Origin: Methylobacterium dankookense
GTDB taxonomy: Bacteria > Pseudomonadota > Alphaproteobacteria > Rhizobiales > Beijerinckiaceae
Length of the DNA stretch: 64,000 bases
Assembly (NCBI RefSeq): GCF_902141855.1
Contig: NZ_CABFVH010000001.1
Coordinates: forward strand, 186,001 to 250,000
Reading direction: 5' to 3'
This document shows positions 22,408 to 61,461 of this stretch, piece after piece. A program made the translations under genes and the position numbers. The notes beneath the pieces are model-generated. The model had not been told where the DNA came from. It did not search any database and saw only the letters and a program-made list of their open reading frames with translations. Each line of letters opens with the position of its first letter. The first letter of the stretch is position 1.

Positions 22408-23007
22408 TCAGCCCGCTATGTCCTGCCCGCGGGGCGCGACCACCGCGAACAGGTCGGCCAGGGCCGCGAGGCTCGCCGCCTGGAGCGCGGCGGCCGGCAC
22501 CACCGAGCCGTCCGGCGCCGGCAGGGCGCGGGTCGCGGTGGCCGCCGCCACCACGGTCGGGCGGAAGCCGAGGCTGAAGGCCGAGCGGGCGGTGGAGTTG
22601 ACGCACATATGCGTCATGAAGCCCGCCACGATCACGTCCTGCACGTTCGCCCCGCGCAGGCGCTCCTCCAGATCCGTGCCGACGAAGGCGCTCGGGTAGT
22701 TCTTGGTGATCACCGCCTCGCCGTCCCGCGGCGCCACCTCCGGGCTGATCTGGCCGATCGCCGCCGCGACGTCGTAGGGCGTGCCCGGCCCGGCATCGTG
22801 CTGGACGTGGAAGACCGGGATGCCGGCCGCCCGCGCCCGCTCCAGCAGCTCGGCGGCCTCGCGGATCGCCGGTTCGACATTCTCGAGCCGCATGATTCCG
22901 TCGCGGTAGGTCTCCTGCAGGTCGATCATCAGGAGCGCCGAGCCCTTCAGCGGCGCCGGCTCGGTGCCGAGGCCGGACAGGCCGCGCAGGGTCTTGAGGT
23001 CCGCCAT
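22408..23007 (-). CDS. isochorismatase-family cysteine hydrolase
   Basis: A 199-residue hydrolase with the family triad Asp29 (MIDLQ), Lys102 (ITKNYPSAF) and Cys135 (MTHMCVNSTARSA), and an upstream cis-peptide-like VAGFMTHM. Related enzymes act on isochorismate, nicotinamide, N-carbamoyl compounds or aryl amides, and the substrate cannot be assigned. The start is set by GGGAGG (minus strand, 9 bases before the ATG at 23007); an ATG at 23016 lies directly against that site and is less likely. The gene is 66 bases upstream of poxB on the same strand and follows a repeat-rich stretch. Confidence 0.84.
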   Translation of the reverse strand: MADLKTLRGLSGLGTEPAPLKGSALLMIDLQETYRDGIMRLENVEPAIREAAELLERARAAGIPVFHVQHDAGPGTPYDVAAAIGQISPEVAPRDGEAVITKNYPSAFVGTDLEERLRGANVQDVIVAGFMTHMCVNSTARSAFSLGFRPTVVAAATATRALPAPDGSVVPAAALQAASLAALADLFAVVAPRGQDIAG

Positions 23008-23059
23008 GATCGTCATCCTCCCAGGTTCGCGCGGAGGGTGGGCGAGCGGGCGCGGAAAC

Positions 23060-23572
23060 TCAACCGGGCGGGGGCTTCGCCTTTGGGGGGATAGGCCCCA
23101 GCGCTTCCGCATTCTGAGGTCCATCGGACTCGCGGATCCCCTCTCCCCGCCCGCGGGGAGAGGGCCACGTCTCCCCCTTGTCGGGGAGCGTGGCGAGCCG
23201 GCAGGCGACGGTGAGGGGGCGATTCAGGCAGAGCCCATTCCTGAGCCGCCCCCTTACCGCCGCTCCGGCTTCGCCTCCGCTTCCCGCAGGCACGACAAGG
23301 TGCCTGCGGGCCTCTCCCCGCGCGCGGGGATGAGGGGTTCGACACGTCGTCGGACTCGGCCCGGTACTCCGGCCTCTCCCCGCGCGCGGGGAGAGGGGAT
23401 CGCCCTGGACCAGGGCCGCGTAGAGATGACGGGGCACAACCTCCGATGCAGGACGCATCTGAAGGAGTTGCTCGTCCGTCGCTTCAGCCGCATCGGGATC
23501 CCGAGCGATTGCGGCCTGGATCGCGGCTTCCTGTCCATCCGTAAGCGCCGGTGCCTTTTTCCGCGCCTTCAC
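23060..23572 (-). pseudogene. BrnA-like antitoxin N-terminal fragment running into palindromic repeats
   Basis: A GTG at 23572 overlaps the stop of the HerA-like gene as GTGA, and about 56 codons follow that resemble the N-terminal part of BrnA/DUF4415 antitoxins (AAIQAAIARDPDAAEATDEQ, then RPASEVVPRHLYAALVQ). At about 23400 the frame enters GC-rich palindromic repeats and stays open to 23060, giving a meaningless Arg/Pro/Gly-rich tail and a total of 170 residues. The ribbon-helix-helix C-terminal part that binds DNA in BrnA is missing. No BrnT toxin gene is nearby. The simplest view is an antitoxin gene interrupted by repeat insertion; expression of the fusion is possible. Confidence 0.5.
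23138..23396. repeat. cluster of GC-rich palindromic repeats
   Basis: Four inverted repeats lie in about 260 bases: 23138-23164 (CCCTCTCCCCGC arm), 23283-23310 (CCCGCAGGCAC with GTGCCTGCGGG, 11-bp perfect stem), 23311-23335 and 23373-23396 (both CCTCTCCCCGC with GCGGGG arms). They resemble REP/BIME-like clusters and match, in part, copies elsewhere in the window. No flanking direct repeat or transposase frame was recognised. Confidence 0.75.
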
Positions 23573-25104
23573 TTCTTCATCAACCCACCGAGCACGTTGC
23601 GCAGGATGGCATCTCCCACCTGCTTGCCGACGCTGCGGGCCATGGAGCGGGCGGCGTTCGAGACCACCTGCTCCACGAGGCTCGGCGGCGGCCGGCGGCC
23701 GGTGCGGCCCTGCGCCGCCGCCCCGCCGCCCATGACGTTGCCGAGGATGCCCCCGAGCAGGCCGCCGAGGCCGCCCTCGCTCTGGCCGGCGGCCTCGGCG
23801 GGGGCGCTGTCGAGGCCCTTGCGCTTGGCCAGCATCTCGTAGGCGCTCTCGTTGTCGACCGTCTCGTCGTAGCGGCCGCGCAGGGGGCTCTGGGCGATGA
23901 TCTGGGCGCGCTCCTCCGGGGTGAGCGGCCCGACTCGGCCCTGCGGCGGGGCGATCAGCGCCCGCTCCACCACCGAGGGCGTGCCCTTGGCCTCCAGAAA
24001 GCTCACCAGGGCCTCGCCGACGCCGAGTTCCGTGATCGCCCGCGCGACGTCGAAGCCCGGATTCTGGCGGAAGGTCTCGGCGGCGGCGCGCACCGCGCGC
24101 TGGTCGCGGGGGGTGAAGGCGCGCAACCCGTGCTGCACGCGGTTGCCGAGCTGGCCGAGCACCGTCTCCGGCACGTCGAGGGGGTTCTGCGTCACGAAAT
24201 AGACGCCGACGCCCTTCGAGCGGATCAACCGCACCACCTGCTCGACCGCGTCGAGGAGCGATTTCGGCGCGTCGTTGAACAGGAGATGCGCCTCGTCGAA
24301 GAAGAAGACCAGCTTTTGCCGGTCGAGATCGCCGACCTCGGGCAGGTGCTCGAACAGCTCGGAGAGCATCCACAGCAGGAAGGAGGCGTAGAGCTTCGGC
24401 CGCTGCATGAGCTTGTCGGCGGCCAGGATGTTGACGAAGCCCCGCCCCTCGCGGTCCTTGCGCATGAAGTCGTCGAGGTTCAGCGCCGGCTCGCCGAAGA
24501 ACCTGTCGGCGCCCTGGTTCTCCAGCACCAGGAGCTGGCGCTGGATCGCGCCGACGCTCGCGGCCGAGACGTTGCCGTAGGTGCCCGAGATCTCCTTCAG
24601 GTTCTCCGAGCAGAAGGCGAGCAGCGCGCGCAGGTCCTTCAGGTCGATCACCGGCCACTGGTTCTGGTCGGCGACGCGGAAGGCGATGTTGAGCACGCCC
24701 TCCTGGGTGTCGTTGAGTTCGAGCAGGCGCGCGAGCAGCAGCGGGCCCATCTCGGTCACGGTGCAGCGGATCGGGTGGCCCTGCTCGCCGAACAGGTCCC
24801 AGAACACGGTGGGGAAGCGGTCGGGCTCGTAGGCGATCCCGAGTTCCTCGGCGCGCTTCACGAAGACCGGCTTCGCCTCGCCGGCCGCCGCGATCCCCGA
24901 GAGGTCGCCCTTGATGTCGGCGGCGAAGACCGGGACGCCGGCATTGGAGAAGCCCTCGGCCAGGACCTGCAGCGTCACGGTCTTGCCGGTGCCGGTGGCC
25001 CCGGCCACCAGGCCGTGCCGGTTGGCGAGGCGCAGCGTCAGCACCTCCGGCTTCGGATTCGGCCCGGTGCTCTTGCCGACCAGGAGGGTGCCGTCGTCCG
25101 CCAT
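23569..25104 (-). CDS. HerA-like/DUF853 ATPase
   Basis: A 511-residue ATPase of the DUF853 (helicase HerA-like C-terminal) family. Walker A GATGTGKT is at 35-42, Walker [11 protein letters not shown] at about 266-275, and the intervening [27 protein letters not shown] and [18 protein letters not shown] blocks match the family. The C-terminus (about 435-470) has a Gly-rich [18 protein letters not shown] stretch followed by a basic helix. Function is unclear; the closest biochemical work is on HerA-type DNA-translocating ATPases. The start ATG 25104 begins [12 protein letters not shown]. The gene is divergent from a small Gly/Met-rich gene at 25285 and overlaps the BrnA-like fragment (GTGA). 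Confidence 0.88.
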
Positions 25105-25284
25105 CGCCCGAATCCCGAATTCGCGCGCCCGAGCCGGCGGGGGAACCGGTCCGGCCCCGAAGCGCATCTCAGTCACGGTTATGCCGGTGCGGCGTAACGT
25201 TTTCCAGACGCGGCCCGTCTTGATTTCCGGGGCGTCAGGCCCGAATGACCGCAGGATCTCACGTTCTCGCGAAAGCCGGATCCC

Positions 25285-25671
25285 ATGGAAGAACTGATCG
25301 CCCGCGTGACCAGCCGCACCGGTCTCGACGCCGCCACGGCGCAGACCGCGATCGGGCACATCCTCGCCTTCCTGCAGAAGGAGGGGCCGGCCACCGAGGT
25401 GAGCCAGCTCATGGCCGCGCTGCCCGGCTCCGAGGCGCTCGTCGCCGAATCGAACGCGGCCGAGGGCGGCGGCGGCCTGATGGGCATGCTCGGCGGCATG
25501 ATGGGCGGCGGCGTGATGGCGCTCGGCCAGAAGCTGATGTCGGCCGGCGTGCCGATGGGCCAGATGCAGCCGCTCGGCCAGGAGCTGTTCACCGTGGGCC
25601 GCGAGAAGGCGGGCGAGGACGTGATGGGCCCGATCGTCGGCTCGATCCCGGGCCTCAACCAGTTCGTGTGA
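25285..25671 (+). CDS. small Gly/Met-rich protein, function unknown
   Basis: A 128-residue protein. Residues 1-45 form an amphipathic helical segment ([20 protein letters not shown]) like those of DUF2267/DUF2780-type proteins; residues 60-90 are [16 protein letters not shown]-rich and hydrophobic without a charged break, and the end ([20 protein letters not shown]) is again helical. No signal peptide. It is divergent from the HerA-like ATPase, whose own C-terminus has a similar Gly-rich hydrophobic stretch. The function is not known, and the family assignment is a guess from helix pattern and glycine stretch. Confidence 0.7.
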
Positions 25672-25806
25672 GGCGGGTCGGCCGTCTTTCCGGCGGCCGA
25701 GTGTCATAAAACCGTTCGCGCTTCGTGATCTTGAGTAGGCTCACGAGGCGCGGATCTCGCCATCCCGGGGATGGCGGCCGGGGGCCTTGAGGGCAGGCTT
25801 TCGACG

Positions 25807-61216: not shown

Positions 61217-61456
61217 TCAGCGCGCGATCAGCGCCTTGAGGGCCTCGTTGATCCGGTCCTGCCAGCCGGGACCGTCCTTCTGGAAATGCTCCAGTACGGC
61301 GCTGTCGATGCGCAGCGTCACGCTCTCGCGCGCGCCCGGCGCAGCCGGGGCCGCGGGTGCCGCCGGCCCCTCCGGACGGCGCGCGGTGGCCGCCCGAAAA
61401 GCGGCCTCCGCGGCCTTGCGCGGGTCGGAGGTTCTGCGGCCTCGCATGTCGGACAC
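61217..61456 (-). CDS. BrnA-like antitoxin (DUF4415 domain) without its toxin
   Basis: A 79-residue protein ending in ESVTLRIDSAVLEHFQKDGP (residues 47-66) then WQDRINEALKALI, which is the DUF4415/BrnA ribbon-helix-helix and tail. The N-terminal part is short and basic (MRGRRTSDPRKAAEAAFRAA). The GTG at 61456 has GAAGGG 9 bases upstream, so it is preferred over the ATG at 61447. BrnA normally pairs with toxin BrnT encoded just upstream; here the neighbour 5 bases away is instead a Lys/Ala-rich protein of another type. It may be an orphan antitoxin or a regulator. Confidence 0.75.
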   Translation of the reverse strand: MSDMRGRRTSDPRKAAEAAFRAATARRPEGPAAPAAPAAPGARESVTLRIDSAVLEHFQKDGPGWQDRINEALKALIAR

Positions 61457-61461
61457 GATCG

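Follow-up and report, generated by a model that had tools for sequence, protein, structure and literature searches.

Bacteria harbour small dispersed palindromic elements, among them the REP/BIME, ERIC and MITE-like repeats. A MITE of ~400 bp, MiniMdi3, is described from Methylobacterium (PMC2680597). In enterobacteria, repeat units continue annotated frames, according to Delihas 2007 (PMC2759123). A second system of relevance here is the type II BrnT/BrnA toxin-antitoxin pair, in which the RHH of the antitoxin BrnA is located at the C-terminus (PMC11980606). The locus considered below resembles both, since it joins the N-terminal part of a BrnA (PF14384) to a small repeat that happens to extend its open frame.

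The locus lies in a window (the whole stretch of DNA that was analysed, 64,000 nt, with a GC content of 71%) on contig C1 of a genome of 6,149,484 bases in 132 contigs. On the minus strand of the window, positions 23572 to 23060 read as a frame of 170 codons with a GTG start and zero internal stops. From the upstream to the downstream end, the features of the region are as follows:

23569-25707, minus strand: HerA-like ATPase frame (HerA_C, PF05872), from the ORF list and Pfam (E 2.2e-224); start approximate
23571-23569, minus strand: TGA of the HerA-like gene, from the ORF list
23405-23572, minus strand: front part (5' fragment) of an antitoxin gene, brnA, of 56 codons, from BrnA alignments; 3' limit soft (23405 to about 23363)
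23373-23401, unstranded: short GC-rich palindrome of 29 nt abutting the brnA fragment, from the repeat search
23338-23372, minus strand: spacer separating the palindrome from the dispersed element, from reading the sequence
23131-23337, minus strand: one copy of a dispersed multi-branched hairpin element of ~207 nt, making up most of the open tail, from repeat, fold and copy comparison
23060-23130, minus strand: remaining intergenic DNA with the TGA that closes the 170-codon frame, from comparison with the relative G011
22408-23007 (start approximate), minus strand: isochorismatase-family gene, next downstream, from Pfam (PF00857, E 5.1e-35)

A scan for sigma-70 promoters and intrinsic terminators found neither type in 22950-23700. 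The original prediction had offered two readings of the frame, a disrupted relic or a new translation-coupled small protein. The first is supported, whereas the second finds no support in the site, the element or the composition of the tail. We consider it very likely that the frame is an orphan 5' relic of brnA with a fortuitous open tail running through a dispersed structured repeat; the relic itself probably has no function. The main value of this reading is that it guards against annotating a fused small protein where a remnant plus a structured repeat explain the frame better.

The proposed resemblance of the first ~56 codons to BrnA N-termini was borne out by direct comparison with homologues from the genus. 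Compared with 23 loci, the 56-aa part showed 43-66% identity over 28-55 codons; at most of these loci an RHH-like part follows, and at many of them a frame resembling BrnT ends at the brnA start. The codon-by-codon comparison covered 15 of the 23 loci and 12 distinct proteins (the proteins in rows L137, L139 and L140 are those already present in L054, L053 and L055) and gave 49-63% identity over 47-55 codons. This similarity is above chance, the best match in another genome having an E-value of 1.6e-13. At E<=0.01, the 56-aa part was matched in 13 of the 61 genomes searched, its own genome included. At the DNA level, no near-identical sequence was found in the other genomes of the genus (111 genomes), where the best other match was 75% over 85 nt. 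A scan of named genomes with the 56-aa part gave six loci, namely four from Methylobacterium (57-61% identity), the genus in which the BrnA-like part has its best named matches, and two from distant bacteria; a BrnT-like frame is located upstream in three of the four Methylobacterium loci, whereas the fourth, L139, has just the final BrnT residues in front of an intact brnA. Two matched full-length proteins were scanned as well, and both are BrnA (PF14384), each with a BrnT (PF04365) directly upstream.

The fragment resembles BrnA proper in that its alignments with BrnA of this genome and of the genus begin close to the start codon. Unlike BrnA, it is recognized by no Pfam family: at E<=1, zero families were found for the 170-aa frame or the 56-aa part. 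Against PF14384, scores of 70.2 and 75.6 bits were obtained for two intact homologues, and only 15.2 bits for the 55-aa N-terminal cut of an intact BrnA; from this low score it follows that the profile lies mostly in the half that is missing here. In NCBIfam, the sole match of the 56 aa was weak and unrelated (PA5502_lipo, E 0.052, 13.1 bits versus a cut-off of 285). PADLOC returned no match for the 170-codon frame at E<=0.1, and in a plasmid collection the 56-aa part was unmatched at E<=1e-5.

All 56 codons of the fragment are open, and the BrnA-like residues DPD and MRPASEV are kept. Differences from the homologues fall mostly on third codon positions (for example, 13/10/27 against L008), a bias which shows a coding past with no obvious decay. 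The GC content by codon position is 0.82/0.46/0.64, its third-position value being below that of all 15 homologue rows (0.77-0.88). Aligning the frame with BrnA had been suggested as a way to find the insertion point. With three of the four BrnA tested, the alignments of the 56-aa part end at codon 56-59, but with the fourth (L009) the BLAST alignment extends to about 23363. Since the latter runs on through the palindrome, the exact 3' end of the fragment is soft.

The fragment also differs from BrnA in having neither the C-terminal RHH half nor an adjacent brnT. As to the former, the reported lack of the C-terminal DNA-binding part was confirmed, there being no credible match in 22900-23700. 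The C-terminal halves of four BrnA found nothing credible there (best E 0.24), and one full-length BrnA query gave a weak match (E 0.031) on the opposite strand with a stop inside. Because the RHH is situated at the BrnA C-terminus, the fragment is devoid of the repressor part. As to the latter, the statement that no BrnT toxin is present is true locally; the gene upstream of the frame is the HerA-like one.

The missing half was also sought elsewhere in the window. The best match, at ~61.2 kb, was rejected because it belongs to another RHH-like frame that has a start of its own. Three weaker matches to the C-terminal half were seen (E 0.019-0.095), including one within the ATPase gene region at 23753-23833. 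The short frame at 61217-61460 (minus strand) has an RHH part that matches PF14384 (positions 12-66 of 68, 49.5 bits) and an N-terminal part unlike BrnA; its contig has no BrnT match.

For a comparison of the site across the genus we used the HerA-like gene, which was matched in 68 of the 111 genomes at E<=1e-60 and unmatched at that threshold in the other 43. Downstream regions were read at 67 loci, with G134 excluded because its contig ends at the gene; one of the 67, G028, extends for just 39 nt beyond the gene and is uninformative. The brnA fragment is found behind the HerA-like gene in one of these 67 loci, that of the genome studied here, and likewise the hairpin element (E<=0.001). An isochorismatase gene follows the HerA-like gene in 4 of the 67 loci (G000, which is this genome, G011, G014 and G126), as judged from the stretch available at each. 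The closest relative by the HerA-like gene is G011, with 96% identity over 299 aa. It has the HerA-like and then the isochorismatase gene with about 208 nt between them, and neither fragment nor element. From about 23092, the DNA of G011 rejoins the window, matching at 161 of 176 positions in a stretch that reaches into the isochorismatase gene.

Weak tblastn matches to the fragment (E 0.001-0.05) occurred at eight further loci of the 67. A control with the reversed query at the same threshold matched 4 of the 67 loci, compared with 9 of the 67 for the real query, this genome being in both sets. Three of the weak matches (G073, G108 and G096) lie directly behind the HerA-like stop; they were rejected, the aligned frames being 29-42% identical with no DPD or MRPASEV. 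The gene after these three frames reads MFAVIKTGGKQYRV, which we take to be ribosomal L21-like. The other five are located at least 300 nt downstream of the HerA-like gene.

According to the original prediction, the case would be a simple disruption with no function if relatives without the repeats had BrnA intact and BrnT beside it. For the gene family this is indeed the picture, as this genome and its relatives both contain intact brnT-brnA pairs, but at the exact site it is not, as the nearest relative has its short spacer with no brnA and no element. The G011 site without brnA thus points to an orphan fragment at a foreign site and does not show an intact operon that was interrupted where it stood.

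The start of the frame overlaps the stop of the HerA-like gene, as had been noticed, in that the GTG shares GTGA with the TGA of the ATPase. GTGA forms the end of the HerA-like gene in 13 of the 67 genus loci, this genome included (AAGTGA in 2 of the 13), and the final HerA-like residues are identical in G032, G022, G019 and G028. Given the 13 loci, what the overlap contains is the stop of the ATPase itself; no selection for coupling would be needed, since a brnA piece joined behind AAGTGA in the right frame would suffice. The start position in a possible translation-coupling overlap is a frame coincidence of 1 in 3 at least.

As to the origin of the arrangement, we propose that a 5' piece of brnA, with one cut close to the start codon and the other after about 56-59 codons, landed directly behind the HerA-like stop, presumably by illegitimate recombination. 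The GTG overlap would then have arisen incidentally, when the piece was joined to the TGA that ends the ATPase gene. Behind the brnA piece lie the short palindrome and then one copy of the dispersed repeat, through which the frame would stay open fortuitously; any product made would have no selected function. Counted against a relic are the 56 open codons, the conservation of BrnA-like residues and codon pattern, the L009 alignment into the palindrome, the start in a coupling overlap and one covariation measure (see below).

Another history of the same relic would start from an intact brnTA operon at this place, with the element inserted into brnA. It agrees with the palindrome beginning where most BrnA alignments end, but we regard it as unlikely: credible C-terminal BrnA sequence is missing from 22900-23700, no brnT separates the brnA start from the HerA-like gene, which is itself complete to its end, the site in the nearest relative measures only about 208 nt, and a later deletion of the C-terminal brnA part plus brnT must be added. 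This history is a variant within the relic reading, and its odds are not added to those of the latter.

In the relic reading, the open tail calls for no explanation other than chance. The frame of 110 codons through the repeats, to which attention had been drawn, is real, but its openness is ordinary: among 2000 dinucleotide shuffles of the tail, 360 were open for at least 110 codons and 330 for at least 114. With the window as a yardstick, 7,218 of 18,188 arbitrary positions and frames, real genes included, were open for 114 codons. The open tail is not beyond chance in such GC-rich DNA. Its GC content by codon position is flat (0.75/0.71/0.75), compared with 0.72/0.44/0.97 in the ATPase frame, and the tail is thus without a coding signature. 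The frames of Delihas 2007 (PMC2759123) are similar in that a small repeat happens to extend an open frame. They differ in that theirs are in annotated gene loci, whereas the frame extended here belongs to a gene fragment, found at this site in one genome only.

The repeat search yielded one 25-nt palindrome in three copies plus further hairpins. Four palindromic repeats, as originally counted, were a fair reading by eye, but the region is better described as a lone palindrome (23373-23401) and a composite element of ~207 nt that carries the other two. The genome has at least 20 copies of the element, window copy included (L081-L100). It was matched in 82 of the 111 genus genomes at E<=1e-10, the copy numbers in other genomes being lower bounds (seven candidates scored per genome).

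As RNA, the element adopts a branched fold of -165.6 kcal/mol (z -11.6 versus 200 shuffles). Standard pairs occupy 98.5% of the pair cells across the 20 copies, in a structure derived from the same alignment, and pairing falls to 47-54% when partners are slid by 1-3 columns. Changes on both sides were seen in 77 cells at 13 pairs, where cells count copies and not independent events; the shuffled mean was 25, and none of 500 shuffles reached 77. Of the 13 pairs changed on both sides, 12 are located in two arms. Further pair types, one of five covariation measures, did not exceed the shuffled values (395 of 500 shuffles gave at least as many). The frame of the window, followed across the 20 copies, is open in 11 and has stops in 9, and in 11 of the 20 the phase changes before the end of the element (L090, a row without its first bases, is uncertain). 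With pairing kept and frames broken or drifting, it is base pairing that is conserved among the copies; they do not keep a protein.

Judged by composition, 18 of the 20 copies have no overlap with a coding-like ORF; of the remaining two, one overlaps by 3 nt and the other (L091) overlaps a frame with a probably over-extended start. In the 75-nt flanks of the 20 copies we found only inverted matches of 6-12 nt, with none in two copies; target duplication was not demonstrated, and the element is itself an imperfect palindrome. Rfam gave no family at gathering score in 22900-23700. The 16 Rfam matches at E<=1 (microRNA models and a plant-virus promoter hairpin) are far below gathering scores and were taken as chance hairpins. 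In the plasmid collection, the element region matches four Methylobacterium records, of which two were inspected; these have one annotated feature each and are uninformative on gene context. A literature search found no paper plainly describing the ~207-nt element. We assign it to the dispersed extragenic palindromic repeats, REP/ERIC-like in the wide sense. It shares with REP/BIME, ERIC and MITE-like repeats that it is dispersed, mostly extragenic (by the composition test) and strongly self-complementary. It departs from them in its length of about 207 nt and its several arms, two of which covary strongly.

These observations bear on the possibility of a new translation-coupled small protein, for which ribosomes would restart at GTGA and produce a BrnA N-terminal domain with a functional repeat-encoded tail. 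The GTGA overlap, the 170 open codons and the codon pattern kept in the BrnA part speak for such a protein, as do the enterobacterial repeat units that continue annotated frames (PMC2759123). Yet the TGA of the overlap is that of the ATPase, GTGA ending the gene in 13 of the 67 loci, the tail is without a coding signature, the element keeps base pairing rather than frame, and the frame is absent at the site in all other loci examined. We therefore consider a coupled protein highly unlikely.

An overlapping proposal is that of a truncated antitoxin acting in trans, in which the BrnA N-terminal piece would bind BrnT without repressing transcription. With the RHH of BrnA being C-terminal (PMC11980606), the N-terminal half could face the toxin; among solved structures, no match was found for the one BrnA tested. 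Six BrnT matches exceed the cut-off in this genome, on contigs C9, C22, C41, C44, C83 and C96, the window being on C1. However, an antitoxin-like ORF lies directly downstream of every one; three of these ORFs are BrnA-like, corresponding to the PF14384 matches on C41, C44 and C83, and three HTH-like (by eye). A partnerless BrnT in need of the fragment was therefore rejected: with an antitoxin-like ORF adjoining every BrnT, no toxin lacks a candidate partner and would depend on the fragment, which makes an action in trans very improbable. If termination-reinitiation on the HerA-like mRNA gave a BrnA N-terminal domain with a repeat-born tail, and this protein titrated BrnT, the repeat-tailed piece would be a domesticated half-antitoxin, but we judge this extremely unlikely.

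The BrnT genes on C9, C22 and C96 (L101, L103 and L104) are followed by antitoxin ORFs that appear by eye to be HTH-like and not RHH-like. In L139 (Methylobacterium sp. GXS13) and L053, an intact brnA is located behind only the last BrnT residues, in a frame fused to other sequence, which may be another sign of brnTA decay in the genus. The hairpin element, being genus-wide and having compensatory changes in its arms, may merit a study of its own. For 12 of the 20 copies, the 3' end of a coding-like ORF (composition criterion) is within 30 nt, in L090 and L098 on both sides; such a position would suit a role at transcript ends.
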